From NCBI GenBank assembly GCA_950295325.1, contig OX485808.1, positions 16,636,527 through 16,700,526 on the forward strand: DNA of 64,000 bases, given 5' to 3'. Every line of letters begins with the position of its first letter. Position 1 is the stretch's first letter. This DNA is from Polytrichum commune (taxonomy: Eukaryota > Streptophyta > Polytrichopsida > Polytrichales > Polytrichaceae). The notes below the pieces were generated by a model. It was not told the DNA's origin and did not search any database. It saw only the letters and a program-made list of their open reading frames with translations. Shown here one piece after another: positions 340 to 64,000 of this stretch. Position numbers and translations under genes: made by a program.

Positions 340-1720
340 GACTCTCTTTGGTGCCCTGTAGCTCCTAGTTTGCTTTTTCCTCTGATTTTCCTCGTTCCTT
401 CTTCAGCCGCCAGGTTGGTTGCTCGATCGCTCTTCCCTGGGGATTTGCGATTGTAGGAGTGTGTTATGAGTTGTACTGATGATCCATTTGAGCTTTATTT
501 CGCCCTCTTTCGTGCCCTGTGGCTCCTGTTTACGCCTTTTTTCCTCTGTTATTCTCGATCCTCCTTCAACCGCCAGTTTGCTCGCTCGCTCGTCCCCGGG
601 GGATTCACGATTGTTGGGATGTGGAGTGAGTTGTACGGGTGATCCATTTGAGCTTTATTTCAGGCTCTTTGCTGCGCTCTAGCTCTTGCTTCGCCATTTT
701 CCTCTGTTTTTTTCTCGCTCCTTCTCCACCCGGCAGGTTGGTTGCTCTCTCGTTCTCGGGGATTTGTGATTGTTGGGATGTGAATGACTTGTATTGGTGA
801 TGCATTTGAGCTTTATGTCGGGCTCTTTGGTGCCCTGTAGCTCCTGCCTCATCCATTCCTCCGTTTCTCTTCTCTGTTTTTTCTCCCTTCTGCAACCAGC
901 AGTCAGGTTTGGTTGGTTGGTTGGTTGCCACCGCGGATTGGCATTCGTTGTGGATGTAAACGATTCGCATTGGTGTTCCATCTAAACTTTATTTCACCTT
1001 CCTTGCTGCTTGTGGCTCCTGCTTCACCTTATTCCTTTGTTTTTTTATCGCTTCGGTAAATCGGCAGGTTGGTTGGTCGCTCGTTCCTGGGGATTTCACG
1101 ATCATTGGAATGTGAATGACTTGCATTGGTGCTCTATTAAGCTTTATTTCACTCTCATGGTGCCCTGTAGCTCGTGCTTCAACGTTCGCTCTATTTTTCT
1201 TACTTCTTCTCCACCCGGCAGGTTGGTTGCTCGCCAGCCACCAGGTTTTTGCAATCCTTGTGAATGTGGATGTGAATATGAATGATTAGCATTGGTGCTC
1301 CTTTCAAGATTTATACTACCTTTTTTGGTGCCCTGTAGCTCCTGCTTCCTATTTTTCTCGCTTCTGTATACCGGCAGGTTGGTTGTTTAGTTGCTATTGG
1401 GGATTGGCAATGGTGGTAAATTGTGCGCTATTGGTTATTTCGGGCTTTACTTCACCTTCTTTGGTGCCCTATAGCTCCTCCTCGAGCTTTTCCCCCTTGT
1501 TTCTACTCTGCTTTTCTCGCTTTTTCCGCTTGGTAGCTCGCTGGCGACCTGGGACTCGTGATCGTCGTGAATGTGTTTCCATTGCTGATCGTTTCGGGCT
1601 TTTAATATTTCACCGTCTTTGGTGCCATGTAGCTCTTGCTTACCTTTCATTTTGTACTGTTGCACGTGAATGCAAGCGATTTGCATTTCAAGCTTGATAT
1701 CAACCGCTTTGGCGCCTTGT
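340..1720. repeat. Degenerate ~160-bp tandem repeat upstream of the thiolase gene
   Basis: The phrase GGTGCCCTGTAGCTCCTG recurs near 348, 507, 667, 827, 1000, 1157, 1325, 1459, 1618 and 1707, usually about 160 bases apart. Each copy is followed by a T/C-rich stretch, then CGGCAGGTTGGTTGCTCG, then a segment like GATTTGCGATTGTTGGGATG, then TTGAGCTTTATTTCA. Copies differ by many substitutions and small indels, so the array is old. Its open frames in several phases are by-products of the repeat. It ends about 250 bases before the thiolase start codon and may include its promoter or 5' UTR, which is inference. Confidence 0.85.
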
Positions 1721-1966
1721 AGCTTTGGGTTGGCGGGTTTTATTTATTTATTTCTTGTATTCTATTGGGATCTTCATCCACCGGCAGATGTTTGGGTTTG
1801 TTTTGGGGTCTCTAGAGATTTGGGCTCGTCATGAATGCAATTAATGTGCATGGATTTGAGATGACAAGGCGCGTTATAAGTTTGGTGTGGTAATGTCTCT
1901 TTGCAGCAGGGGCGCCGAATTCAGGATTTCCTAAGATTAAAAAACTGAGAAGCAAGCGACATCATC

Positions 1967-7908
<5,942 letters not shown>

Positions 7909-12607: not shown

Positions 12608-12680
12608 GCCGTCCTAGCTCAGTTGGTAGAGCGCAAGGCTCTTAACCTTGTGGTCCAGGGTTCGAGCCCCTGGGGTGGCG
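12608..12680 (+). tRNA. tRNA-Lys (anticodon CTT), copy 1
   Basis: 73 nt folding as a full cloverleaf. The acceptor stem is GCCGTCC/GGGTGGC with two G-U pairs. The anticodon stem is CAAGG/CCTTG around loop CTCTTAA, giving anticodon CTT. The T stem is CAGGG/CCCTG around TTCGAGC. A and B boxes are intact. A short T run (TTTTT) follows about 12 bases downstream as a possible Pol III stop. Confidence 0.95.
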
Positions 12681-12890: not shown

Positions 12891-12963
12891 GCCGTCCTAG
12901 CTCAGTTGGTAGAGCGCAAGGCTCTTAACCTTGTGGTCCAGGGTTCGAGCCCCTGGGGTGGCG
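12891..12963 (+). tRNA. tRNA-Lys (anticodon CTT), copy 2
   Basis: Identical 73-nt body to the copy 283 bases upstream, with the same stems and CTT anticodon. It is followed at about 12971 by a run of eight T, a strong Pol III terminator. Confidence 0.95.
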
Positions 12964-16303: not shown

Positions 16304-16376
16304 TGGAGATGCGGGGTATCGATCCCCGTACCTCTCGCATGCTAAGCGAGCGCTCTACCATCTGAGCTACATCCCC
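16304..16376 (-). tRNA. tRNA-Ala (anticodon AGC)
   Basis: 73 nt on the minus strand. The acceptor stem is GGGGATG/CATCTCC, with discriminator A. The anticodon stem is CTCGC/GCGAG around TTAGCAT, giving AGC. The D arm (GCTCAGATGGTAGAGC) and T loop are intact. A TTTT run follows about ten bases past the 3' end on the minus strand. Confidence 0.95.
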
Positions 16377-50646: not shown

Positions 50647-53435
50647 TAATGCCTACATGCCCGTGCCACCCAAAGAGAGGGAATTATCACATACGAGTGT
50701 ACCTCTCATTTATCCAACATAAAAACTTGGCCCCCTATAGGTTTGTTGCCAATTTATCTCAAATGACCTCAAGTACACTAATTTGGCGCCTTTGAAGCTA
50801 ATACCGGTGTCAAATCAACTTTAGAAAGTAACATCCATACTACATCCTACTTTAAGGCTTTTGTTTTGAATGGATGGTAGGTACGCTCATATATGATAAC
50901 TCCCTCTCTCCATGCCACCCATAAAGTTTGTACAAATATTGGATTGGTATATAGGTGAATGCATGGTATTAGTATTCAATGTCAATAATCAACATAAAAA
51001 TACAAGAAGGGCTCAAGAATGAGCCTTTTATGTTATCAATGAACACACTCAACTACCTAATCTCAAAACTATAAGTCCATTGAAATAGTTGTATTTTGTG
51101 GGGATCTCAAGAGGAGAGGAAAAATATAAACATGATTTATTATTTGGGTCAAGTCATTTATTAGCCATGTTGTTACTAAGGTGATTTTACCTAGGTTTGA
51201 ATGTTCTAGGATTGTATATAGACTTGAATGATATCACAACCAAAATTCTCCTCAAATATTCATGCCCGTCTTGTATCAAAGTAATGTGAAACCTTCATAA
51301 TAGATATCTGAACGCTATTAAATAAATAAATAAAATGACACCACTCCAACATTTGGCTCACACCTATGCATGTACCATGTTGCCTTGTCAATTTTGGCAC
51401 AACCTACGTATCATGAGTGTGGGTGCCACAGGTTGTGCAATTGTTGGTTGGAATAATGAAATAGGTTGTGTGGTATGAGAATAGAATCAATTTTGACAAG
51501 GAAAGTGATAACATACAATGGTACGAAGAATTCTCATTAGCCAACAAGAGAGGCAACCCTCTCAAGTTATTGGTCACTTAATTTTTGAGGGTGGGAAGGG
51601 GTTCAAAGAGTTGCATGTTCCCCATTCAAATGCACGACATTTAGGATTTGAAAAACATTTGTGTTTTGTAAGTGGGATGACCAATTCAAAAATGAAGCAA
51701 CACCATAATTCATGCTAGTGGCAACATCGAAGTCATCTTTCTATCTTTCTTAGGTGGGATGAGCATGTGGTTTTGCTCCGAAAACTTAAGAAGCCAATAA
51801 CTGAGAGAATCATTTTAGAATGGTTGTTGGAGATGCTCTTACAACAACCCCCACACCCATTTGAAGGGCACTTTCATTACACACGACCCAAGGGTTGTAA
51901 CATTGTGACTAATGAAACTATAAGTACCTTTGACATTGAATAATGGGCCATGTTCCCTTGGGGGTACATTGGTAAGTTTTGGAGCCCCTTATAGGTTTTA
52001 TAGTAACAACCATTGAGAACTTGGGGTATTGGGTGATGTGGAAGCAATAGACAAGGCTAGAAATTATGGGGATCAAGTTATACTAATTCATGACCACTTA
52101 AATTAAGTCGATATGCATTAAACAATTGAGGTTGTCAATGTAGCAATTATTGTGTATGATTTGTACTTGCATCAGAGTCCAACATTTTCCTTTCTAATTG
52201 CACCCATACCCAGACCATGTCCATCAGCAGCGACCTATGCCCACCCATAGCATGACATGTGCCCACCCATGCCCACCCATGAACAATAATATCGCAGCCA
52301 TGCCCACCCATGCCCACCCAAAACCCAAAACCCATGGGCATGGGCATGGGTATGGGCACCCAATGTAGGGCTCTGACTTGCATGCAATTTGATTTCATTG
52401 TTTTTTGCAAGCTTCCCCTTTAACCTTGGAACAAATCTTGGGAATTTACTTGAGCTAAGTTGATCAACACAATATACATGAGTGCAAGCCTGCAAGGGTG
52501 GGCTAATATCGAATCCTCGTCTCACAGATTAATGCCCAAACAATTGCAAATCATCATTACTTGGTGATCAACGAATGAAAGACAACCATGCTAAGCCCAT
52601 TGACTAAATTGAGGGTTTAAAGGGTTGTCTTAGTGGGCAATAAGGATATTGTAACACGCATGGGTTTTGTGGGTGGGTTGAGCATGTGGACTTGCCCCCA
52701 AAATATGTAGAAAACATGTTATACATGTTATAGTTTATTTTACATCAATCATTTCACGTACTACTCATGTATTAACTATATCTCGTGTGTAGTGCAATGT
52801 GTTTTCTTAGAAACCTAATGTGAGCGCAAAACCATTGTTTCTGTCTAGGAGAACCCACTATGTACATTAGAAGCCACCGTCATTGCTCTTGCTTCATTTT
52901 GTGTAATGCACCGTGTCATGTAGAATGTTGACTACACAATTTGGATCTTCTTTTTTTAATCTATTTTTTGCAAATGCCTAGAGGTGTGTCATGTTTGTTG
53001 TCATCTATAGTATACATAACACACATTCATGACAAGATTGCATTACACAAATCATAGTGAATCACAATAATGTCAATGTAATGCAATTTGTTATTTAACA
53101 ACCCATATGTAGTATGTCACAATGCTATATGGACCATCATCGTGGCACCGTGAGTCAACTAGGCATGTCGTCCCCTTGTCTTACGGGATGAAGACTCCTC
53201 AGATAGATAGAAACTCCGGTCCCTTTTAGGGGCCGGCGTGAATAGAGTGTCCGTTCGTAATGCCAACAACCCGATGCCCACAGGACATGGGGAAGCTGGG
53301 ACAAGACTACTCTCCTCTTTCGAGGATGGACACTATAGTAACCGAGAAACAAATAACATGGGCCGATCATGGCCCACGGGGGTGCATGCCTTTTAAGTAT
53401 AATTAGTGTTTTTGTAATGAGAGTTGAACATCAAG
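50647..53435. other. No gene seen
   Basis: AT-rich DNA. At 52195-52370 the word TGCCCACCCATG is repeated several times and faces ACCCATGGGCATGGGCATGG, so the segment can fold. A GC-richer block at 53155-53370 contains CCGGTCCCTTTTAGGGGCCGG, a near-palindrome. It may be 3' UTR of the adjoining LINE, which is transcribed toward it, but I could not fix that boundary. Confidence 0.35.
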
Positions 53436-53643: not shown

Positions 53644-54381
53644 TTATGGAGGGTCTAAGTTTTGGGGGAGCGGTTGGTGGTTTTCAATTCTCCTCTTATG
53701 GAGGAGGATGGACATGGCATATTGTATTGCAATTGTATTAATATTTTTAAAGGTATTTTTGATGGTAACCATGGGTATTTTGAGATTTTCTTCTAGTATT
53801 TTCATAGATGGGATGTGGGCCGTCGCTCGGGCCCCAGCTGTGATGACAATAAGTGGTTCGATTTTCCATCCTCTGGAAGCGATACTATCAATCAATGGTT
53901 TGTATTTGTTGTTTTTTGCTTCTATTGCTTCTGGGGAGAATCTGTCGTTACAATATGTGAATTCAATAAATTGTATGGTGAGGTTAGGGTCAGTATCAAT
54001 GGGAGGGTCATTTTGATATGACAATCCTTTAACGCAGAGTATATCGGGTCGAAATCTTGCGTTGCAATGACATCTTTGTGTGTTACATGTGCAGGGGAGT
54101 AGCCAATTGGGGACAATATTTTCTTGGGGATTATTATTGAAGGTACCGGCATTCATGAGAGTAAAACATCGGGATTTTTCGGACGAGATTAGGAGCTTCC
54201 TAATTTCTCCGACTGCTTTGTTATGTCTTTTAATTCGTAGTAAGTGTATATGTTGTTGGTTACATTTCAGTAATACATGTAGCCAAGTGTCTGGATCATT
54301 TGAGTTGCATATAGGGCACGTGATAGAGGGGTACCTCTGGTGACCAAAGAACATTTGTTTTCTAGCATTACCCATATATGT
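53644..54381 (-). pseudogene. LINE C-terminal CCHC knuckle and restriction-like (PD-(D/E)XK) segment
   Basis: In frame with the RNase H ORF past one TGA. Counting from the Met at 54375: CPICNSNDPDTWLHVLLKC (20-38) is a C-x2-C-x9-H-x4-C knuckle. A second Cys cluster CTCNTQRCHC lies at 95-104. FRPDILCVKG (108-117), FIEFTYCND (137-144) and KNNKYKPL (154-161), with RGWKIEPLIVITAGARA after, fit the order of a PD-(D/E)XK restriction-like endonuclease as in R2-type LINEs and Dualen. If right, the element carries two endonuclease types. The protein ends QPLPQNLDPP. The assignment of this fold is inference from spacing and motif order. Confidence 0.65.
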
Positions 54382-55944
54382 TCATGTGCGGAATTTAATA
54401 AGGCAGGATTTTTGTTTGTCTATGATTAAGGGATTTGTCCAGAATTCGTTGGACAATTCTTTGTCAATGTCTATATTTTCTGACCATCTACACGTGTTGG
54501 GGGTTTGTGTGGCCATGATTGCTATATTGGTTTCCCTATCATATTTTTTGATTTGTTTTTCTAAGAATCTTACTGGGCCTTTGTCTGGGACGTCTGCCAT
54601 CGAGGCCCAGACGTCCTTTTGATAATAGTACGGGGTGGCGTGGGCATGTTCGTATGGGTGGATGGCAATTCTGTGTTCTAATTCTAACCCGTCTTTTGCT
54701 AGTTTATCCGCTTTTTCATTACCGTCAATGTTGACGTGTGCTCTGACTTTGTATAGTGTGATTGGTTGTGTACGGTTTTGAAGGATTTTTACCATGGAGT
54801 TGAGTGTGGTTTGGTCTGGGTGACTATTATGGAGAGTGGGGTGTTTAATTTGTGTGTTAAGTAGGTATAATACATTTAGACTGTCTGTGAATATGAATGC
54901 GGGTTCATTAGGAAATTGTGCATTGATGATTCTTAGTGTTTTGTGTATAGCCATCATTTCTGCACGTAGTATGTTTTGATGTCCATGGAGTCTTTTGGCG
55001 ATATTTAAACCTTTGGGGCTATAGATACCGTATCCCGCTTTTTCTCTTCTCCATACCCCAGGGGCAATTTCTTTGGGTTTTATGAAGGATCCGTCCGTGT
55101 AGTAGCTAAATTGGGGGTGGAATTTTAGCGGTAAGTTAGTTTGGTAGTTTGGGAGTTGTGGGATGGGGATATTATTGTGTAGGGGTGTGTTTGGGTAGTT
55201 TGATTTAGCCCATTTTTTGCTAGGGTTAACGGTGATGTTCGGAGGGGTGGGTGGTGCGATTTGAGTGTGGCTTTGTAGTATTTGGAGGTTATTTGCTGTG
55301 TCATTTATTAACTTCATTTCTTCGTAGGTACCTATGTTATTATTTTGGTGATGGATACAGAGTATTTGCATGGTAGATGGTTCTTTCCTTGTGATATTGA
55401 GCTCGGGGGGTATTGTCGGTTCTTCATATGTGATTGTGTCAGTAGCGAAATGGGCAATAACATGTGTGTCTGGGAATGGGCCTGTGTGTGGGTTCGAGTT
55501 TTGGTACCAATCAGTGTCTGGGGATATAATTATAGTGATTGTGTAAGGGTCATTTTGGGCCGCCATGCGTGCCCAGTGTATGGCTTGTTGTAGGTCTGTT
55601 GGGTTGTGCGGATGTGCGTATCCGATTCCTTGCCATTTATAGTCAAACACTTTACCTAAGGATCCGAATATTATGTCTCGTGAGAATGGCGAGTAGAATT
55701 GGGTGAATTGTGTAGGACATGTAATTGGGGATGAAAAATATGAGTGGTTAATATTGAATGTTGTAATTAGTAGATCCAATATTTGAGTTGGTATTGTATA
55801 TTGGGCTATTTTGAGTGGGTCGTATTTTGGGATACGGTATTTGTATCTTTGGTATAGCCAAACAATTTCAGTTTCGAATGATTGGGTAGATGGTTCTAGA
55901 CCATGTGTGGTATTTTTGCCAATTGATATTGTTTCCACAGCCAT
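54382..55944 (-). pseudogene. LINE segment with an unassigned domain and RNase H
   Basis: 520 codons. Residues 60-200 form a conserved-looking but unassigned region (FYSPFSRDIIFGSLGKVFDY, IGYAHPHNPTDLQQAIHWAR, TDWYQNSNPHTGPFPDTH). Its pattern loosely recalls adenine-methyltransferase-like domains, but I do not assign it. RNase H spans about 278-420: YYTDGSF (D284), LRAEMMAI (E329), IFTDSLN (D354), and KVRAHVNIDGNEKADKLA (H403, N409, D413). The catalytic set is complete. The frame ends at a TGA in IKFRT*TYMGNAR; the next ORF follows in the same frame two codons later, so the stop fits a CGA to TGA change. Confidence 0.88.
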
Positions 55945-56414
55945 GTTAGTCTAGCTTTCGGGATGGTGATGAGATGCCTTCCATTGTCTTCGTATATGTG
56001 AGCGACATCGAATTGTGTTTGGATGGTATCAGAGTTTGTTTCAATGTCGTTTTCTGGGTTGCATTCACTAATAGAGATATGTGCTAGCGGAATTATTGTG
56101 ATTGGTGTGACGTATCTTGTGTCTCGGTGTTGTTCTGTGGTGAAGTAGGCGTTAATGATGTTTGAAAAATGTTTGTGTTGTCTTTCTGTGTAATATTGGA
56201 TAAGCAGGTTTGTGTTGTGATTGCATATGTTGGCTTCACAATAGGGGTATAGGTCCCTTTGGATTCGCCATTTATTATATGTGTTGTTATTTGTTGTGGT
56301 CCATTGACATAGGTATGACGTGACTGTTCTTTTTATTCCATTGTGGTCATTAGATTGTTTTTGTTTATGATCAAGTATTTTGTGTATGGGGAATTGTCGG
56401 GGGTCTTTAAGCAT
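55896..56414 (-). pseudogene. LINE linker segment, unassigned
   Basis: 172 codons in a third frame, reached through a frame change near 56.4 kb. It includes TSYLCQWTTTNNNTYNKWRI and LIQYYTERQHKHFSNIINAY. I recognise no domain. The following ORF overlaps in a different frame near 55940, so another small indel separates them. Confidence 0.6.
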
Positions 56415-56590
56415 GTTGTTGGGGGGAGGAGGTAGATGGGGGATGGGGATATTAGGGGGTGTACGGGGGCGATCGGTGTGTTAGGTAGGATGTTGTGATT
56501 TCTTATTATATATTTGTTTTTGAGGGTTCTTGTTGGGTGATGTTGTTGGCAAGGTAGGGGGCATTGGTTGCAGGGGGGGTGGCAGAATAA

Positions 56591-57298
56591 TTAATTAGCT
56601 ATATTAAATGCGCTTTGGATAAGTTTAGAAGGAGTGGAGTGGTAGATTTTGAATTCGTCTTTGTTCATTAGAGTGGTACCATTAGGCATGGTAATTTGGT
56701 CTAGTGTGGTTATATTATGTATAAGTAGTTTGTGTAGTAATTTAAGTGAGGTGTTGGAGTTAAGGCCATGTAGCATTTGTGCTTCTTGCATCCATGCAGT
56801 TTCAAGTGAGGATGGGGTTAGTAGGAAGTTATTTATTGTACTTTTTAGATGGACTCCGGCTTTATGTTTGAGCAGGAACAATGTTCTAGTGATGGGTGAT
56901 CTAACACAGTGGTGGTATTTAATGCGAATGATTTCTTGAGAGCCCCCATATTTGGTGAGTATGAATTGTAATAGACCAGTATATATTTTCCCAATTCTTC
57001 CTTTGTCATTGAGGGCATTTTGTAGTTGTTCTCCTATGCATCTTAGATAGGCATTTTGTAGTGAGAATGCTTCGATTCCAAATAGGTTGTGTGGAAGTTG
57101 TGTAGTGATGTTAGATGTGCATTTGGGTATCCCGCAAATCGTTTTGTGGAGTGCTATGATTTTTTTATCTAGTTTTTTCATAGCTGGTATGGAGTAAGGT
57201 ACTGCGTAGAAGCTGTATGCTATTCCAGCGCGTATGACTGTATCTGCCATGTTTATTTTTTGTTTCATAGTAGCTGGACATGTTACAAGGGCTTGACA
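56591..57298 (-). pseudogene. LINE RT thumb/connector segment
   Basis: In frame with the RT core. Begins CQALVTCPATMKQKINMADT and contains GIAYSFYAVPYSIPAMKKLD and IIALHKTICGIPKC, the typical segment after RT in LINEs with RNase H. It ends at a TAA in FNIAN*LFC. Directly after that stop, CHPPCNQCPLPCQQHH (about 56540-56575) is a cluster of Cys and His that might bind zinc. Confidence 0.8.
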
Positions 57299-58021
57299 TT
57301 ATTTGATGACTTTAGCTGTAGTAGTATTTATTTGTGTTTTCCATTTAAGTGACGGTGCAAGGTTTATTCCTAGATACGTGTATGGTTCATGTTGGTTTAA
57401 GACTGGTATAGGTTGATTCATGTAGTTTATATTAGTGGATTGGATTAAGGCTTTAAAGGTTGTGGGGTGAAGTTTGGATTTGTTTGGGCAGCCATTTATT
57501 ACACACTTGGGTATTCCAAGATCCATTCCTGCCCATTTGCAAAATTTGTCTAGTTTGTTTAGTTGTGTTTCTAGTGTTTCTAGTTTATTGGCGATTGCTG
57601 CTAGGTCGTCTGCATATGCTGCTGATGAAATTTTTACTTTAGATGTGCCAAAAGTGTATCCATTATTTCCTTGTTGTAGCCATCTGAGGAGGGATTCTAG
57701 GAATATGATAAATAGATATTGGCTAAGGGTATCACCTTGTATTGTACCTCTTTGAATAGGGATTGGTGAGGTTTTTCCGAAGTGTTCGCCAGTGAATATT
57801 GTTGATGATTGTGAGTATATGTTTCCTATGAGGTTTATGGAATCAGTGGGGTATCCCAGATCTTTCATTATGGCTAAAAGTCTGGCGTGATCAATGGAGC
57901 CAAAGGCATTTTTGAAGTCAATGTAGAGGATATATATATCTTGATTCGTGAGTCTTGGATCTTTAAGCGCTCCGATGAATAATTGAATTTGTCTAGAAGT
58001 GCTTCTCTCTGCTCTGAATCC
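57299..58021 (-). pseudogene. LINE reverse transcriptase catalytic core
   Basis: Continues in frame after the TAA at 58022. GFRAERSTSRQIQLF opens the block. YIDFKNAFGSIDH carries the first catalytic Asp (57917-57919). RGTIQGDTLSQYLF is the conserved loop, and AYADDLA gives the catalytic pair (YADD at 57605-57616). GIPKCVI and YTYLGINLAP are the later RT blocks. All catalytic residues are present. The frame ends at a TAA (57299) which interrupts TAKVIK*CQALV, again apparently a point mutation, since the thumb resumes in the same frame. Confidence 0.92.
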
Positions 58022-60007
58022 TTATTGGCTGTCATGTAATATTTGGTATTTTTCGCCATATGTTGATAGAATAGAGGTTAGTGTACTCGTGTAGAATTTA
58101 TATATGGTGTTAGCGAACGCAATAGATCTGTGGTTTGTTAGTTGTGGTGGGTTTCCTTTTTTGTACAGTAATACTGTTAGGTTGGTTTTCCATGATGCGG
58201 GAATTTGTTTTTGTTTATAACAATGTTTAAAGAATAGGAAGAGTAGTTTGTGGAAGCGTGGAGGCATATTTTTTAGAATTGAATTGGGTATTTTGTCTGG
58301 GCCTGGAGCTTTGTTATTGCTTAGGTTTTTAAGACAAAAGTTGTATGTTTCTTGGTCAAAATACGTGTGTAGGGGGTTGTGGGGTTCTCGTCTCTTATCT
58401 ATTATGTATCCATCTAGGTCATGCCATGGATATTGTCGGACTCCACATGTGCAGTGTAGTGGGTGTGTATTTTGGTATTGGCATGTGGGAACTGTAGGAC
58501 GGTTACTGATGGATTGTTGTGTGTAAATTTCTGATGCGATGTCTTCTGGGTTGGTTAGTATATTGTTTTGTCTATCAATGATGGAGTCCAGGGGTGAGGT
58601 TTCAGTGTTCTTGAAGACTTTCCGGTTTATTTTTTTGGGGTTTTTTTCGTACATTTGTCTGTATTTTGATACGGCCTTTAGAATGCAGTCTTTGGTATAT
58701 TTTGTGGTAATTTTTCTGGATTCTTTATTTGTTTTTTTTGCTATGATTGCTATGGTATTAATCCATTCAGTAGGAGGTGCCGTTGTGCTAGGTGGGTGTG
58801 GGATGTTTGTGTGTTGGTGGCTTCGTATATCGTTTAGGATGGGGTGTGCTTGCCAGAGTGGGTCGTGTTGTGCAATGTATATGGTTTTTCTTATTATGTG
58901 GTATGTGTTGAGGTGTCTTTTCCATTCTCTGGCCAGTTTTCGTGGCAGAAAACCATCTTGTTGTGATGTTCTGCTCGTAAGGTTTGGTAACGGGTCTGCT
59001 TTACATGTTTTTTCAATTATTTCTGAGATTTGGTTTACAATATGGTCAAATGTTGTACAGGCTTTTGCCCATTGATCCGGGCTTAAGTGTTGATGATTTT
59101 CTAGTAATGTGGTAAGGGTTTTTATTTGGGCAGAGTTTTCCTCGAAGAACGTTATGTTGAATTTTTCGATATTTTCTGGTGGTATTGGGTTTAGTATTAT
59201 AGTTGGTGACGTGTTTGTGGGGGGTGGGGATCTGGCTATAAAGGTGTTGTGGGGGATATGTAGGGCAACTGGATAGTGGTCTGAGTTTAGATTCATATTT
59301 GTATTTGTGGTGGAGATGAATTTGTTGTTGTCTGGTGAGTGGATGTAGAATCCATCTATTAGACTTGTTGACGTGGAGTTATAGCCTCCTTGTCTGGAGA
59401 TGCGAGTGTTAGTTGGGATATATTCTAGGTTGAGTGATGTAGTAAATTTTTTCCATTGGTAGTCTTCTTCTTGTAGGGGGGTGTTAACGTTGTTATTTTG
59501 CCTGCCCCTGAATACAATATATCGGTTAAAGTCGCCACATAATGTGTATATGTGATTAGGGTTTATAGTGATTTGATTAATGATTTCGTTCTTAAGGTGT
59601 GGGATGAGGTATATGTCTTCTAAGTGTGTAGGCATATACATATGTATAATTAGCCAAGGTATTAGTGGATGATTGTTTATTTTAATTATTTGTAGGTATG
59701 AGGAGATATTTGCTGGTGTTGGAATTTTGGTAATATTCCCAGGGAATGCATATTTCTTGTGGATAAGTGTTAGTAGGCCTCCTCTTCCGGGTGTATAGGG
59801 CATTATTTGTTGTATGCATCTTGTGAGTGCATGTGTGTTGTTAAAAATAAGTTTAAATTCCGGAAATAGATTTTGTATGTATTTTGTAGATTTGTTTTTA
59901 CAGTTAGTTTGGTTTCTTGGATATGGATGATTGCTGTGTTGTTTAGCGAATTGTTTATTAGGCTTTGTAGGTTTGGCAGTGAGGTGTTTAGTGATGATGC
60001 ATTCCAT
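58022..60007 (-). pseudogene. LINE AP endonuclease (main part) and start of reverse transcriptase
   Basis: Up to residue 50 the frame is antisense-phase noise against the preceding ORF; the real domain starts near residue 50. Endonuclease motifs: PGRGGLLTLIHKKY (74-87), IHMYMP, TLCGDFN (155-161, catalytic D and N), TSLIDGF (215-220) and NSDHYPVALH (241-250, catalytic D243 and H244). A linker follows. From about residue 564 RT block 1-2 appears: NNKAPGPDKIP, IPASWKTNLTVLLYKKG and NHRSIAFANTIYKFY. The frame stops at a TAA inside HDSQ*GFRAER, after which RT continues in the same frame. The stop is therefore a point mutation. Confidence 0.9.
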
Positions 60008-60969
60008 GTTATTATGTTTGTTTCGTGTTCAGTGTCTGTGTTGATTCTTATGGTTGGTGCGGGAGTAACTGGGGGTGGGGGTGGGTGTGAGTATTCGTCT
60101 ATGCTTTCTAGGCATCGAAGTGCTTCAGTGATCAGTTTATTTGGGAGGAAGGGAAATTTGTTTTGAAGGGTGATGGGAGTGGGTGTAGTATTTTGGTTAT
60201 GGATGAATTCATATATTTCTGCGTGTATTGATTTTTTTGGGAGTATTATATCTTGATTGTTTCCTACAAATGTTGTGTAGGGGTGTGGTGTCAATATGTG
60301 CCTTTCGGGGGGGTTGGTGAGGTTAGCTAGTCTGATAATCAATGTGTTGGTCCATATGTCGTTAAAGTGGTAATTTTGGGGTTGGACTAGTATGTTATTA
60401 CATATGTCTACTGAGGGGTGTATGGTGATGACTATAGCATATAGCATATGGGTTAGTGGTGATTGCCTTTGTGTTTGGATGTATTGATGCAGATGTGGGT
60501 GGGTATTTATTGCTTGATGGTGTAGTGGGTGTGTATTTTTTAGTATGGGGGCAAATGTATTTGCTATGTGTTGGTATTCAGGTTGTAATTTTATAGTGTT
60601 TGGGATGAAGTATATGTTGGCTCTTTTTTTGTGTGTAGCAGGGTGTGTATGCAGGATGTTAGGCATTGGTCCGGGGTTGGATTCTATGTCCCCGCATTTT
60701 AGTAATTCTAGTTTGTTAATGAAGTAGTATATGTGGGAGTGAATTATTTTTGGATTTTTCATGTTTATTTTTGGATATGTTGTGATTGTGAATTTAGTTG
60801 TGGTAAAGAGGTTAGGTATATCGGGTGTGGGGTTTTCTATTTGTATGGGTGGGAAGTGTGGTTTTGTATTATTTAGAGATTTTTGGCTTGTTATTGAGTT
60901 AGGTTTCCAGTTATTTATGAAGTGGTATTTGTTATTATTTGTGTGGCGAGGCCGGTAGGCCGAAGCCAT
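59803..60969 (-). pseudogene. LINE N-terminal ORF: leader, 2A-like motif and start of AP endonuclease
   Basis: 388 codons. Residues 1-86 form a basic, Asn-rich leader beginning MASAYRPRH. Residues 87-101 are a 2A-like motif. Residues 102-310 are a linker with no recognised fold and a Pro stretch (PPPPPVTPAP). From about residue 316 the AP endonuclease begins: NIITWNASSL (the N/W start motif) and IIHIQETKL (the catalytic QETK). The frame is then lost and the endonuclease continues in the frame starting upstream of 59850, showing a frameshift. The start ATG lies inside the GGCCTACCGGCC motif that recurs upstream. Confidence 0.85.
60667..60711 (-). other. 2A-like ribosome-skipping motif
   Basis: LELLKCGDIESNPGP at residues 87-101 of the LINE N-terminal ORF. 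It matches the D(V/I)ExNPGP consensus, with a hydrophobic stretch and LLxxG upstream, like active 2A peptides. In other non-LTR elements such N-terminal motifs are known to separate a short leader from the main protein by ribosome skipping between Gly and Pro. Here that would release a 100-residue leader. Activity is inferred from sequence only. Confidence 0.85.
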
Positions 60970-63900
60970 TGTGTTTTTTGGGTGGGGTTGGTATTTTGTA
61001 TGAGGGTTTAATAGGTATTTGATTTTGTGATGGTGTTCGAAGTTAGGGCGGAGTTTATTTTTGGAGCATTTGTTTTGGTATGCTTTGGTGTTTGTTTAGA
61101 GGTGAGGTTGGTAGGTTGAGGTTGTTTTGTTTTTCAGGTTGAGTTTTTGTTTAATGTGCAAATGTAGTTTTGAGTAGGGGTGGTTTTTGGGGAATGGTTT
61201 GTGGTATTGGTGGGTGTTATATTTGGTTACTAGGTGTGTATGGGATTTGTCTTGGAGTACGTGTTCTGTAGTTGTGCGTGGTTTCCATTTGGTTGTGGTA
61301 GGGTTTGGCTTGTGGTGAAGATGGTAGGACAGGGTCATTTTGTAATTGTGGTATGATTTGTATTTTAAGTGGAGGTTGGATTTGGAGTTAGGGCATGGTG
61401 TGCTTTTTGAGCGTAGATTGGGATGTTTTTTAGATAGTGGATGAGGTTCTAGGTTAGGTTGGGTTTCTTGTTTTGAGTGGGTATTATGCTTTGGGCGTTG
61501 TTGTGTATGCACTTTGTTTTTGAGGTAAAGTCTAAGTTTTGAGCGAATTCTATATTTTGGATGAAGTTTATTCTTTGGATGAGAGTTGTGTCTTGGGTGG
61601 GGTCTATGTTTTGGATGAGATATATATTTTGGGTGAGGTTGGGGGTGTTTGTGGGTTGAATGGGTATTGTAGTGTAGGATGGATGTGTTTTCTTCAAGTT
61701 GTTTGGGTAAGATGTGTGTGTTGTAGATTGTTATTACTTTTGGTTTCTCTTCGTTTGTAGATTGGTATTTATGACTTTTATGGCGTGGCCGGTGGGCTAA
61801 AGCCTTTTTGTGTTTGGGTGCAATTTTGTGCTTAGTGCGGGGATGGGGTTGTTTTTTGAAGTAAAGATTTGTGTTAATGTTTTGGTGTGATTTGAGTGTT
61901 TGATATTTGTTTTTGTTGGTTTTTTGGGGTGGAATGAGTATGGGTATGGGGCCGGTAGACCGAGCCCTTCTTAGGTGGTTGTTTGGTGTTTTAGGGGATT
62001 TTTTTTTGAAAGGGGTGAGGTGGTATTGTGGGTTATTGTATTTGTAGTGATATGGTGTGTGTTTGTATGTTTTCTTATTGTTTTTCGTGTTTGATATGGT
62101 TTTTGTTTTGTATATGTGTGTTTTGTATTTTGGATGTGTCCTTTGGTTCTGTTTGTTTGTTTCTTGTGTTTGTCCGTAGGATTTATGTTTAATTTCGGTA
62201 AGGTTTTATATGTATAATGAAGTTTGTATTGTTGTTGAGGTCTATATTTTGTGTGTGGCATTGAGTTTGGGTGGGGTTTGTATTTTGGATGTGTGTAGTA
62301 TATTGTTTGAGTGTTGCCTTTGTGTGTGTGTATAGTAAGGTAGTTGTACTTGTGTTTTATATGGTATTTTGGGTATTGTAGGATATCACGCTTAGTATGA
62401 TAATATCTAGATTTAAAGAGTGTGGGCTTTGTTGTAGGTGTGTATATGGTACTAGGGTGTTGTTGGGTTTCTTTGTTGTTTGATGGTATATCTTTTATTG
62501 CATAAGAGGTGTATTGTGGTTGTAGGGCAGTGTAGATATTTGTATTATAGGAATACAAAAGGATTTCTAATCTCATAGGGGATATAGTAATTGGGTTGAT
62601 GTGTCTTTGTTGGTAAGGGGTGTTGGGTGGTTTATGTCTTGTTATGTTAGCTGTGGTTTTGGTTTTTTGGTATATTTTTGTTTTGTTGATCTTTTCTTTT
62701 ATCTTTTTTTGTTTTTTGTTTTCTTTATTGGCGAGGCCGGTAGGCCGAGCTCGTTCTAGTTTATTACGGTTTTTGTTAATTTTTAACATGGAGGTTGAGT
62801 ATTTTACGTGGTATTTGTGTTTTGGGTTGTAGTATAGTTTTGGGTGGGTTTTGAGGTTTGGGCAAGGTGTGTTTGGTTTAGTGATATCTATTTTTTGATA
62901 TTTTGTGAATATATATTTGGTTGTGGTGGAAGGGTTAGTTGTGGCGGGTGTTATGTTTCTTACTTGTTTGGGTAAGTATATGTATTTTGGATGTGTTTTG
63001 TATGTTGGGTGGGGTTTGTATTTTTGGTGGAGTTTATATGTTTGGCGAGGATTGTATTTTGGGTGTAATATGTATTTTGTGTGGGTTTGTATTTTGGGTG
63101 TGTATATTGTTTCGTTTGAGTTCTGTCTTTGTGCATGCGTGAAGTAAAGTAATTGTATTTATATTTCATATGGTATCATGGCTGGTATGATGGTATCTTT
63201 TATGATAGAATACGGACTTCGTTGTAGGTGTGTGTATGATGTTTGGGTGTGGTCGGGTTTTTGTTTTATTTATTCTTTGGTTTTTTATAATTATGTTTTT
63301 GGTTATAGTGAAAGGGTTAGTTTTGGCGGGTGATATGCTTTTTATTTGTTTGAGTAGGAAGTATGTGTATTTTGGATTAATTGTATGGTATTTGTATTTT
63401 GTTTGAGTATAGTGTTTTGTTTGGGTATTGTATTTTGCTTGAGTATGGTATTCTGATTGAGTATAGTGTTTTTCTTGAGTATGGTATTTTGCTTGAGTAT
63501 GGTGTTTTGTTTGAGTATGATGTGTTGCTTGAGTATGGCATTTTGTTTGTGTATGGTATTTTGTTTGAGTACGGTATTTTTCTTGGGTATGATATTTTGC
63601 TTGGGTATGGTATTTTGCTTGTGTATAGTATTTTGTTTGAGTATGGCATTTTGTTTGAATATGGTATTTTGCTTGAGTATGGTATTTTGTTTGAGTATGA
63701 TATTTTGCTTGGGTACGGTATTTTTCTGGAGTATGGTATTTTGCTTGAGTATGGAATTTGTGTTCGTATAAAGTAGATAACTTGTATTTCATATGGTATT
63801 TTGGACATTGTGGGATACTGTGAGTAGTACGATGGTATCTAGTATTTATTCTAGTATTTATTCTAGGTGTAATAGTATATAGAATACTATGTGTAATACT

Positions 63901-64000
63901 ATGTTTAATACTATGTCTACATATGTGTATGTATCTAAGATAGTATTGAAGTAAATACTTTTGTTTTACCCGGCGATTTGTGGTCAATCCACATTTGGCA
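60970..64000. repeat. Strand-biased direct-repeat region upstream of the LINE (possible repeated 5' region)
   Basis: As in the LINE, the plus strand is G+T rich. GGCCGGTAGGCC, with variants, and flanking GGCGAG/CGAAGCC occurs at 60945, 61782, 61948 and 62730. A CATATGGTATTTTGG...GTTGTAGGTGTGT module occurs near 62360, 63165 and 63800. A GGTTAGTTTTGGCGGGTG-type module occurs near 62935 and 63320. The long open frames here (for example 62789-61971 and 61512-61096) are repetitive Lys/Thr/Asn/His-rich readings with no domain. The region may be the LINE's 5' UTR built of decayed monomers, or an unrelated array. Confidence 0.6.
63395..63770. repeat. 18-bp minisatellite, about twenty copies
   Basis: The unit reads GAGTATGGTATTTTGCTT with variants (GAGTATAGTGTTTTTCTT, GGGTATGATATTTTGCTT). 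As 18 is a multiple of three, every frame stays open and produces long false ORFs on both strands (for example a YHTQAK repeat on minus). Similar 21-24-bp units (TTTTGGATGAG-type) occur at 61545-61645 and 62970-63110. Confidence 0.9.

Follow-up and report, generated by a model that had tools for sequence, protein, structure and literature searches.

A seemingly recently active LINE of a plant, probably a moss, that encodes two predicted endonuclease domains and a PCIF1-like domain in one large protein

The window analysed here is a 64,000-nucleotide stretch of DNA from the genome of a plant that is probably a moss. It carries a decayed copy of an abundant two-ORF LINE on the minus strand, with its 3' end near position 53,201 and its 5' part extending beyond position 64,000. 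The original prediction placed a LINE with a 2A-like motif, an AP endonuclease (APE), a YADD reverse transcriptase (RT), RNase H, a CCHC knuckle and a possible second, restriction-like endonuclease (RLE) at 53,644-60,969. All of these motifs are present on the minus strand, although they are spread over seven stop-to-stop pieces because this copy is broken by frameshifts and stop codons. The prediction did not include a PCIF1-like domain between RT and RNase H, an upstream ORF1, a structured 3' end or the true extent of the element.

Intact relatives in the same genome (given L numbers here) show that the motifs belong to one frame. ORF2 is a single open frame of 2,372-2,924 codons in L001, L002, L003, L004, L005, L007 and L015, with the parts in the same order, and 5 of the 150 scored copies have frames of 2,625-2,924 aa. 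In L001, the motifs are at residues 278 (DIEPNPGP), 535 (QETK), 662 (GDFN), 746 (SDHYP), 1302 (YADD), 2141 (YTDGS), 2402 (CPICN), 2491 (RPDIL) and 2519 (IEFT). This set is far beyond chance, as the same architecture recurs in groups that are about 64% and about 43% identical over ORF2. L001-L003 share 98.7-98.8% of ORF2 residues, suggesting recent activity.

The 5' part of the element within the window (60,730-64,000, minus strand) is an A/C-rich spacer between ORF1 and ORF2 with 18-bp tandem repeats at 63,394-63,759, and is probably mostly untranslated. An ORF1 remnant starts at 64,062, just outside the window. A Pfam search with ORF1 gave nothing for L001 and nothing near a cut-off for L005. 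A 2A/StopGo-like motif, DIESNPGP, lies near the N-terminus of ORF2 (60,667-60,729, minus strand). NPGP is found in 14 of 14 elements that cover this region, and 10 of the 14, the window copy among them, fit the consensus (D/G/N)(V/I)ExNPGP. In the other four (L004, L005, L008 and L015) the Glu is replaced, so StopGo may be weak or lost there.

The APE (exonuclease III-like) domain, at 59,150-60,009 on the minus strand, is split over two frames in this copy. Pfam recognizes the domain in sister families (Exo_endo_phos, PF03372, 1.2e-5 in L007; Exo_endo_phos_2, PF14529, 9.7e-8 in L015; 3.3e-9 in L008), but neither in the window pieces nor in L001, where its identification rests on the alignment with those families. 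QETK, GDFN and NSDH are invariant in an 8-row alignment, although PDB profile hits are weak (E about 0.01). The RT (57,230-58,567, minus strand) is broken by stop codons but is matched by PF00078 (RVT_1) at 8e-22, and matches the L001 RT at 94% by tblastn. The RNase H domain (54,652-55,149, minus strand) is matched by PF00075 at 9e-14, and its D-E-D-H-D residues (D19, E64, D89, H138 and D148) are invariant in 11 of 11 rows.

Between RT and RNase H, at 55,192-55,914 on the minus strand, lies a PCIF1/CAPAM-like methyltransferase-fold domain of about 240 residues, related to the cap-specific m6Am methyltransferase. It is matched by PCIF1_WW (PF12237) at 3.1e-11, its PDB profile hits include PCIF1 entries 6irx (0.004) and 6irv (0.055), and Foldseek ranks 1-6 for its predicted structure are all CAPAM. 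This assignment is not without weakness: the model has low confidence (pLDDT 63.2) and fits CAPAM poorly (rmsd 10-12 A, TM 0.32-0.38), and in the most distant lineage, L015, PF12237 falls below its curated cut-off (27.4 against 31.1 bits). The Asn of the NPPF motif, which is probably the catalytic residue, is His or Phe in 13 of 13 aligned rows and His in 19 of 19 further copies that cover the position, and is thus missing from all 32 copies examined.

The C-terminus of ORF2 (53,647-54,381, minus strand) consists of a CCHC zinc knuckle and a restriction-like (PD-(D/E)XK) endonuclease of R2 type. No Pfam family matches these 245 residues, phmmer with the single sequence finds nothing in the PDB, and the only two hits of the sequence profile with E up to 10 are R2 proteins but are not significant (E 1.9). 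In contrast, a Foldseek search of 350,542 PDB chains with the AlphaFold model (pLDDT 77.7, pTM 0.77) gives only six matches at E<=0.001, all of which are R2 retrotransposon proteins. C22, C25, H35, C40, D113, E140, K156, K159 and Y160 are invariant in 12 of 12 rows. The acidic residues therefore do not vary between copies, and the second endonuclease proposed in the original prediction is supported.

Between L001 and L005, dN/dS is 0.09 for APE, 0.06 for RT, 0.14 for the PCIF1-like domain, 0.06 for RNase H and 0.09 for RLE, indicating purifying selection on these domains. The aligned leader has a dN/dS of 0.58, against 0.06-0.15 in the parts from 2A to RLE other than a 39-codon linker.

The element ends in a conserved structured 3'-terminal RNA (53,212-53,334, minus strand) with an outer stem, internal hairpins and a terminal CCGG hairpin. 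RNAalifold analysis of an 8-row alignment gives 26 pairs, 10 of which have changes on both sides that keep the pair; one pair is broken in 3 of 8 rows and one in 2 of 8. An Rfam search of eight sources found only three tRNAs at gathering level, and the 3' RNA of L008 gave only hits far below the gathering scores. The tail of the window copy is at 53,201-53,211 (minus strand). Of the copies retrieved, 20 of 20 end in GGAGTT(T/A)CTATCTATCT(ATCT)n followed by unrelated flank (compared by eye), which rules against site-specific insertion for the main family. The 3' ends number 215 in the genome, against 0 for the reversed pattern. Some sister families have (TTC)n or other ends, and L014 has a T-run. 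Duplications of 12, 12, 12, 14 and 11 bp flank 5 of 5 copies examined, although only two of the five lie at an independently seen edge of homology and chance 10-mers were also shared in three of the five searches.

In a small RT tree (12 rows, with only R2, L1-like elements of the same genome and one group II intron RT, a very long outgroup branch, for comparison), the RT forms its own clade (100/99), with open forks towards R2 (itself only 68/73) and L1-like rows. It lies outside the clade of three L1-like rows (96/95), but a sister relation to L1 is not excluded. Profile scores do not separate the groups cleanly: among PDB chains the RT scores best with R2 (135.7 to 80.8 bits; L1 80.0 to 79.3), while the L1-like elements of this genome score 98.0-68.8. 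The L1-like L022 scores 153.7 bits with L1 by phmmer, compared with about 80 for the profile of this element, albeit by different methods. Searches of viral contigs with the RLE, RT and PCIF1-like alignments and of prokaryote contigs with the RT alignment yielded 49, 132, 47 and 45 pattern matches, none of which was confirmed as a relative.

By domain content, and without a Dualen sequence for comparison, this is a Dualen/RandI-like LINE in a land plant. Dualen/RandI elements of green algae (Kojima and Fujiwara 2005) also have APE and RLE in one element, RNase H and non-poly(A) simple-repeat 3' tails, with (ATT)n and (CTATTT)n listed for RandI families (PMC4640811; PMC3747384); a 2A leader or PCIF1-like domain is not mentioned in the descriptions consulted. 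R2 elements share the CCHC knuckle and RLE fold, but seem to lack an APE and to insert specifically in rDNA, whereas here an APE is present and insertions lie in unrelated flanks. N-terminal 2A-like sequences precede the LINE protein in elements of sea urchin and other animals (Roulston 2016, PMC4981915; Odon 2013, cited in PMC12846837), for which neither dual endonucleases nor PCIF1-like domains were mentioned in the text consulted. SymbioLINE-Dnmt and KnitGypsy-Dnmt3 (PMC5890265) are likewise retrotransposons that took up a methyltransferase domain kept by purifying selection, but theirs is a cytosine DNMT, in ORF1 of a LINE or in an LTR element, rather than a PCIF1-like domain in ORF2. It is the 2A motif and the PCIF1-like domain that appear to be new in an element of the Dualen/RandI-like kind.

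We conclude with good confidence that the locus is a degenerate copy of an autonomous dual-endonuclease LINE that was seemingly active until recently. Its mode of integration is inferred; no activity was measured. We propose target-primed reverse transcription in which the ORF2 protein binds its structured 3' end, one endonuclease (most likely APE) nicks the first strand and primes synthesis at the tail, the RLE cuts the second strand or the branched intermediate 11-14 nt away, and RNase H removes the template; this division of labour between the nucleases is not shown. More weakly, we infer that the PCIF1-like domain has lost methyl transfer but kept RNA or cap binding and holds the 5' end of the element's own mRNA, and that 2A releases or re-targets a short N-terminal leader. 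It is possible, though tentative, that this is a distinct land-plant LINE lineage in which two endonucleases of different origin are both kept active for a division of labour and a captured cap methyltransferase has become a catalytically dead reader of the element's own capped RNA, all in one protein of about 2,300 residues behind a StopGo leader.

Other readings were considered less likely. The intact frames refute the possibility that APE, RT, PCIF1-like and RLE parts are separate genes or nested insertions, despite the seven pieces of the window copy. That the element is an ordinary APE-only LINE with a degenerate, non-nuclease tail after the CCHC knuckle would fit the lack of sequence-level matches, but is very unlikely given that R2 proteins are the only fold matches at E<=0.001, the invariant putative catalytic residues and the dN/dS of 0.09. 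It is also unlikely, though less easily dismissed, that the RLE is kept for DNA or RNA binding while APE makes both cuts. The unrelated flanks are in keeping with this reading, since most RLE-encoding elements are target-specific (PMC4640811); however, the acidic and lysine residues expected for catalysis, and not only the fold, are invariant. Finally, the resemblance to PCIF1/CAPAM and the purifying selection could point to an active m6Am cap methyltransferase that modifies the element's own mRNA, but the replacement of the presumed catalytic Asn makes this very doubtful.

A natural StopGo motif in a plant element is unusual, as a 2026 survey of viruses reports no evidence of natural use by plant viruses (PMC12846837). 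A conserved PCIF1-like domain without the presumed catalytic Asn would be a new kind of cargo in a LINE, and suggests recognition of the capped 5' end of the RNA. LINEs usually carry one endonuclease, and the identity of the enzyme that makes the second cut in APE-type LINEs appears to be unresolved. Because both endonucleases are here under similar constraint in an element with intact copies, mutating one at a time would address this question.

The minus strand from about 53,200 upward carries a decayed LINE, in which one long reading frame is split into seven stop-to-stop pieces. The 3' end is the (ATCT)n-type tail at about 53,201-53,211, which follows a conserved 123-nt structured end (53,212-53,334). 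An 18-bp tandem repeat of about 20 units (63,394-63,759) is located in the A/C-rich spacer between ORF1 and ORF2. The element runs past the end of the window: an ORF1 remnant, 45% identical over 144 columns to ORF1 of an intact copy, lies at 64,062-64,475 (locus L006) and directly abuts the 3' end of a second element of the same group, so the window copy seems interrupted or truncated there.

Intact copies were identified by searching the genome from which the window derives (407.8 Mb, 64 contigs) with the C-terminal 245 residues. Of 5,403 first-look candidates, 150 were scored, all of which are 88-100% identical (these counts are lower bounds). Five of these 150 have open frames of 2,625-2,924 aa; three of the intact copies (L001, L002, and L003) share 98.7-98.8% of their ORF2 residues, which suggests recent activity. 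Two more distant groups were found through RVT_1 and PF12237 searches, and ten of their loci (L007-L016) were retrieved. Compared to L001 ORF2, the long matches of L007-L013 are about 58-65% identical, with N-terminal pieces of 41-52% (the longest being 816 columns of L008 at 48%), while L014 is fragmentary (45-68%) and L015 and L016 are at about 43%. L007 and L015 have intact frames (2,679 and 2,372 aa, respectively), and the seven intact frames have the same order of domains.

The original prediction of a possible second, restriction-like endonuclease (RLE) was assessed using a 12-row alignment of the C-terminus. C22, C25, H35, and C40 (the knuckle) and D113, E140, K156, K159, and Y160 are invariant, while P112 is replaced in one row (L006). 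The AlphaFold2 model of this region (pLDDT 77.7, pTM 0.77) has a strand-strand-helix-strand core. In a Foldseek comparison with 350,542 PDB chains, 471 matches were found at E<=10, of which six were at E<=0.001: all six are R2 retrotransposon proteins (9nl2, 8gh6, 9dou, 8ibz, 9nl3, and 8iby; E 8.6e-6 to 9.5e-5; TM by query length 0.49-0.57). The sequence profile alone hits only R2 chains, at a non-significant E of 1.9 and in the knuckle region, and the single sequence hits nothing, so it is the fold match and not the sequence match that carries this claim.

Between the reverse transcriptase (RT) and RNase H lies a PCIF1-like domain that was not part of the original prediction. PF12237 matches at 3.1e-11 in the window copy, 3e-10 in L001, 2.6e-12 in L007, and 3e-6 (under the cut-off) in L015. 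A 13-row profile finds zebrafish and human PCIF1 in the PDB (E 0.004 and 0.055), as well as one unrelated chain at 2.8. Although the AlphaFold2 model of this domain is of low confidence (pLDDT 63.2), the top six Foldseek hits are all CAPAM/PCIF1 (four at E<=0.001; rmsd 10-12 A), followed by the adenine N6 methyltransferase RlmJ. The position that aligns with the presumed catalytic Asn of NPPF (based on the alignment with 6irv) is His in 12 and Phe in 1 of 13 rows, and is His in 19 of 19 further copies that cover it (of 20 retrieved). PF12237 was scored for 150 of 697 candidates in the genome, with all 150 over the cut-off, but most of these were not read at this position.

Selection was estimated as Nei-Gojobori dN/dS. 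Between L001 and L005 (also an intact copy), the values are 0.15 for the 2A and N-terminal part, 0.09 for the AP endonuclease (APE), 0.13 for the APE-RT link, 0.06 for RT, 0.09 for the RT-to-PCIF region, 0.14 for the PCIF1-like domain, 0.74 for a 39-codon linker, 0.06 for RNase H, 0.12 for a second linker, and 0.09 for the knuckle-RLE; the leader upstream of 2A has a value of 0.58. L001 against L007 gives APE 0.17, RT 0.07, RT-to-PCIF 0.26, PCIF1-like 0.13, RNase H 0.20, and RLE 0.10, and L005 against L007 gives 0.16, 0.05, 0.16, 0.14, 0.23, and 0.12, respectively, although synonymous sites are near saturation in these comparisons. L007 against L015 gives 0.13 to 0.49 in the same regions (saturated), and L001 and L002 differ too little to be informative. 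Both nucleases and the PCIF1-like domain are therefore maintained.

NPGP stands at the same place in 14 of 14 elements that cover the 2A region (L006, L013, and L014 do not reach it). Ten of these 14 match the consensus (D/G/N)(V/I)ExNPGP (PMC12846837), while L004, L005, L008, and L015 have K, H, or Q in place of E. L016 has two core motifs in one open frame (656-7048), and L015 has a second 2A-like motif upstream of its long frame (1090, 1526). For comparison, six frames of the first 53 kb of the window give 2 NPGP in 105,996 codons, both at tRNA genes. Two tRNA genes with the same score lie 283 bp apart on the plus strand (12,608-12,680 and 12,891-12,963), and a third is on the minus strand (16,304-16,376).

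The pattern of the terminal hairpin occurs 215 times in the genome with up to 2 mismatches, while the reversed pattern occurs 0 times. Twenty copies were retrieved: 20 of 20 end in GGAGTT(T/A)CTATCTATCT(ATCT)n, followed by flanks that differ when compared by eye. Sister families end otherwise, with (TTC)n in L008, L012, and L013, a T-run in L014, and TATC repeats in L007. The 5' side was also retrieved for five copies, and 5 of 5 have a matching word of 12, 12, 12, 14, and 11 bp on both sides. In two of these (copies L046 and L048), the word lies within a few bases of the edge of homology between copies, but in the other three the edge is not independently seen, and chance 10-mers were also shared in three of the five searches. 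The lengths carry an ambiguity of 1-2 bp where the tail and the target share letters. We calculate a full length of about 12.7 kb for the copy on contig C1. When copy L044 is compared to L045 and L046, homology between these copies with nearly identical coding parts stops about 150 nt upstream of the ORF1 frame, apart from 113 nt at 74%, as if the 5' leader had been exchanged. The 3' RNA keeps 26 predicted pairs, 10 of them with changes on both sides; one pair is broken in 3 of 8 rows and one in 2 of 8.

The best PDB chains for the RT profile are R2 (135.7-80.8 bits), followed by human L1 (about 80). The same genome has L1-like LINEs (L020-L023) with APE/RT frames of 1,198-1,573 aa and no meaningful match to the RLE or PCIF1-like profiles; L1-like elements of this genome score 98.0 to 68.8 bits with the RT profile, so similarity alone does not separate the groups. 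As a control, L1-like L022 scores 153.7 with L1 and 67.4 with R2 by phmmer. In a 12-row tree, support is 100/99 for the group studied here, 96/95 for the L1-like group, and 68/73 for R2, with open forks between them and one very long outgroup branch. An L1-like RT match (2e-16) was also observed in a stretch with no listed genes of a 39.8 kb Alicyclobacillus plasmid record (NZ_CP104070.1), perhaps representing eukaryotic contamination. The RNase H is of the D-E-D-H-D kind, unlike the archaeal-type RNase H with R reported for plant L1 (PMC4640811). Elsewhere in the genome, where chlorophyll a/b proteins give 58 matches, 14 LHC genes with the same match score form a tandem array in under 100 kb (contig C5, 1,751,760-1,846,160).

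L1 and RTE have been listed for flowering plants and RandI for green algae (PMC3747384). Judging from titles and the start of abstracts, no paper reporting a PCIF1-like domain in a LINE or a dual-endonuclease LINE in a land plant was found in searches for Dualen, RandI, PCIF1 with retrotransposon terms, PF12237, 2A in LINEs, and a Polytrichum genome, although this is weak evidence of novelty as it does not take in the founding Dualen description (literature consulted: PMC3636483, PMC4640811, PMC8226300, PMC8868631, PMC7824862, PMC4981915, PMC12846837, PMC3747384, and PMC5890265).

The prediction of a dual-endonuclease element stands at the level of sequence, fold, and selection. This element works, most likely, by target-primed reverse transcription with two nucleases available, and the PCIF1-like domain is its most unexpected part.
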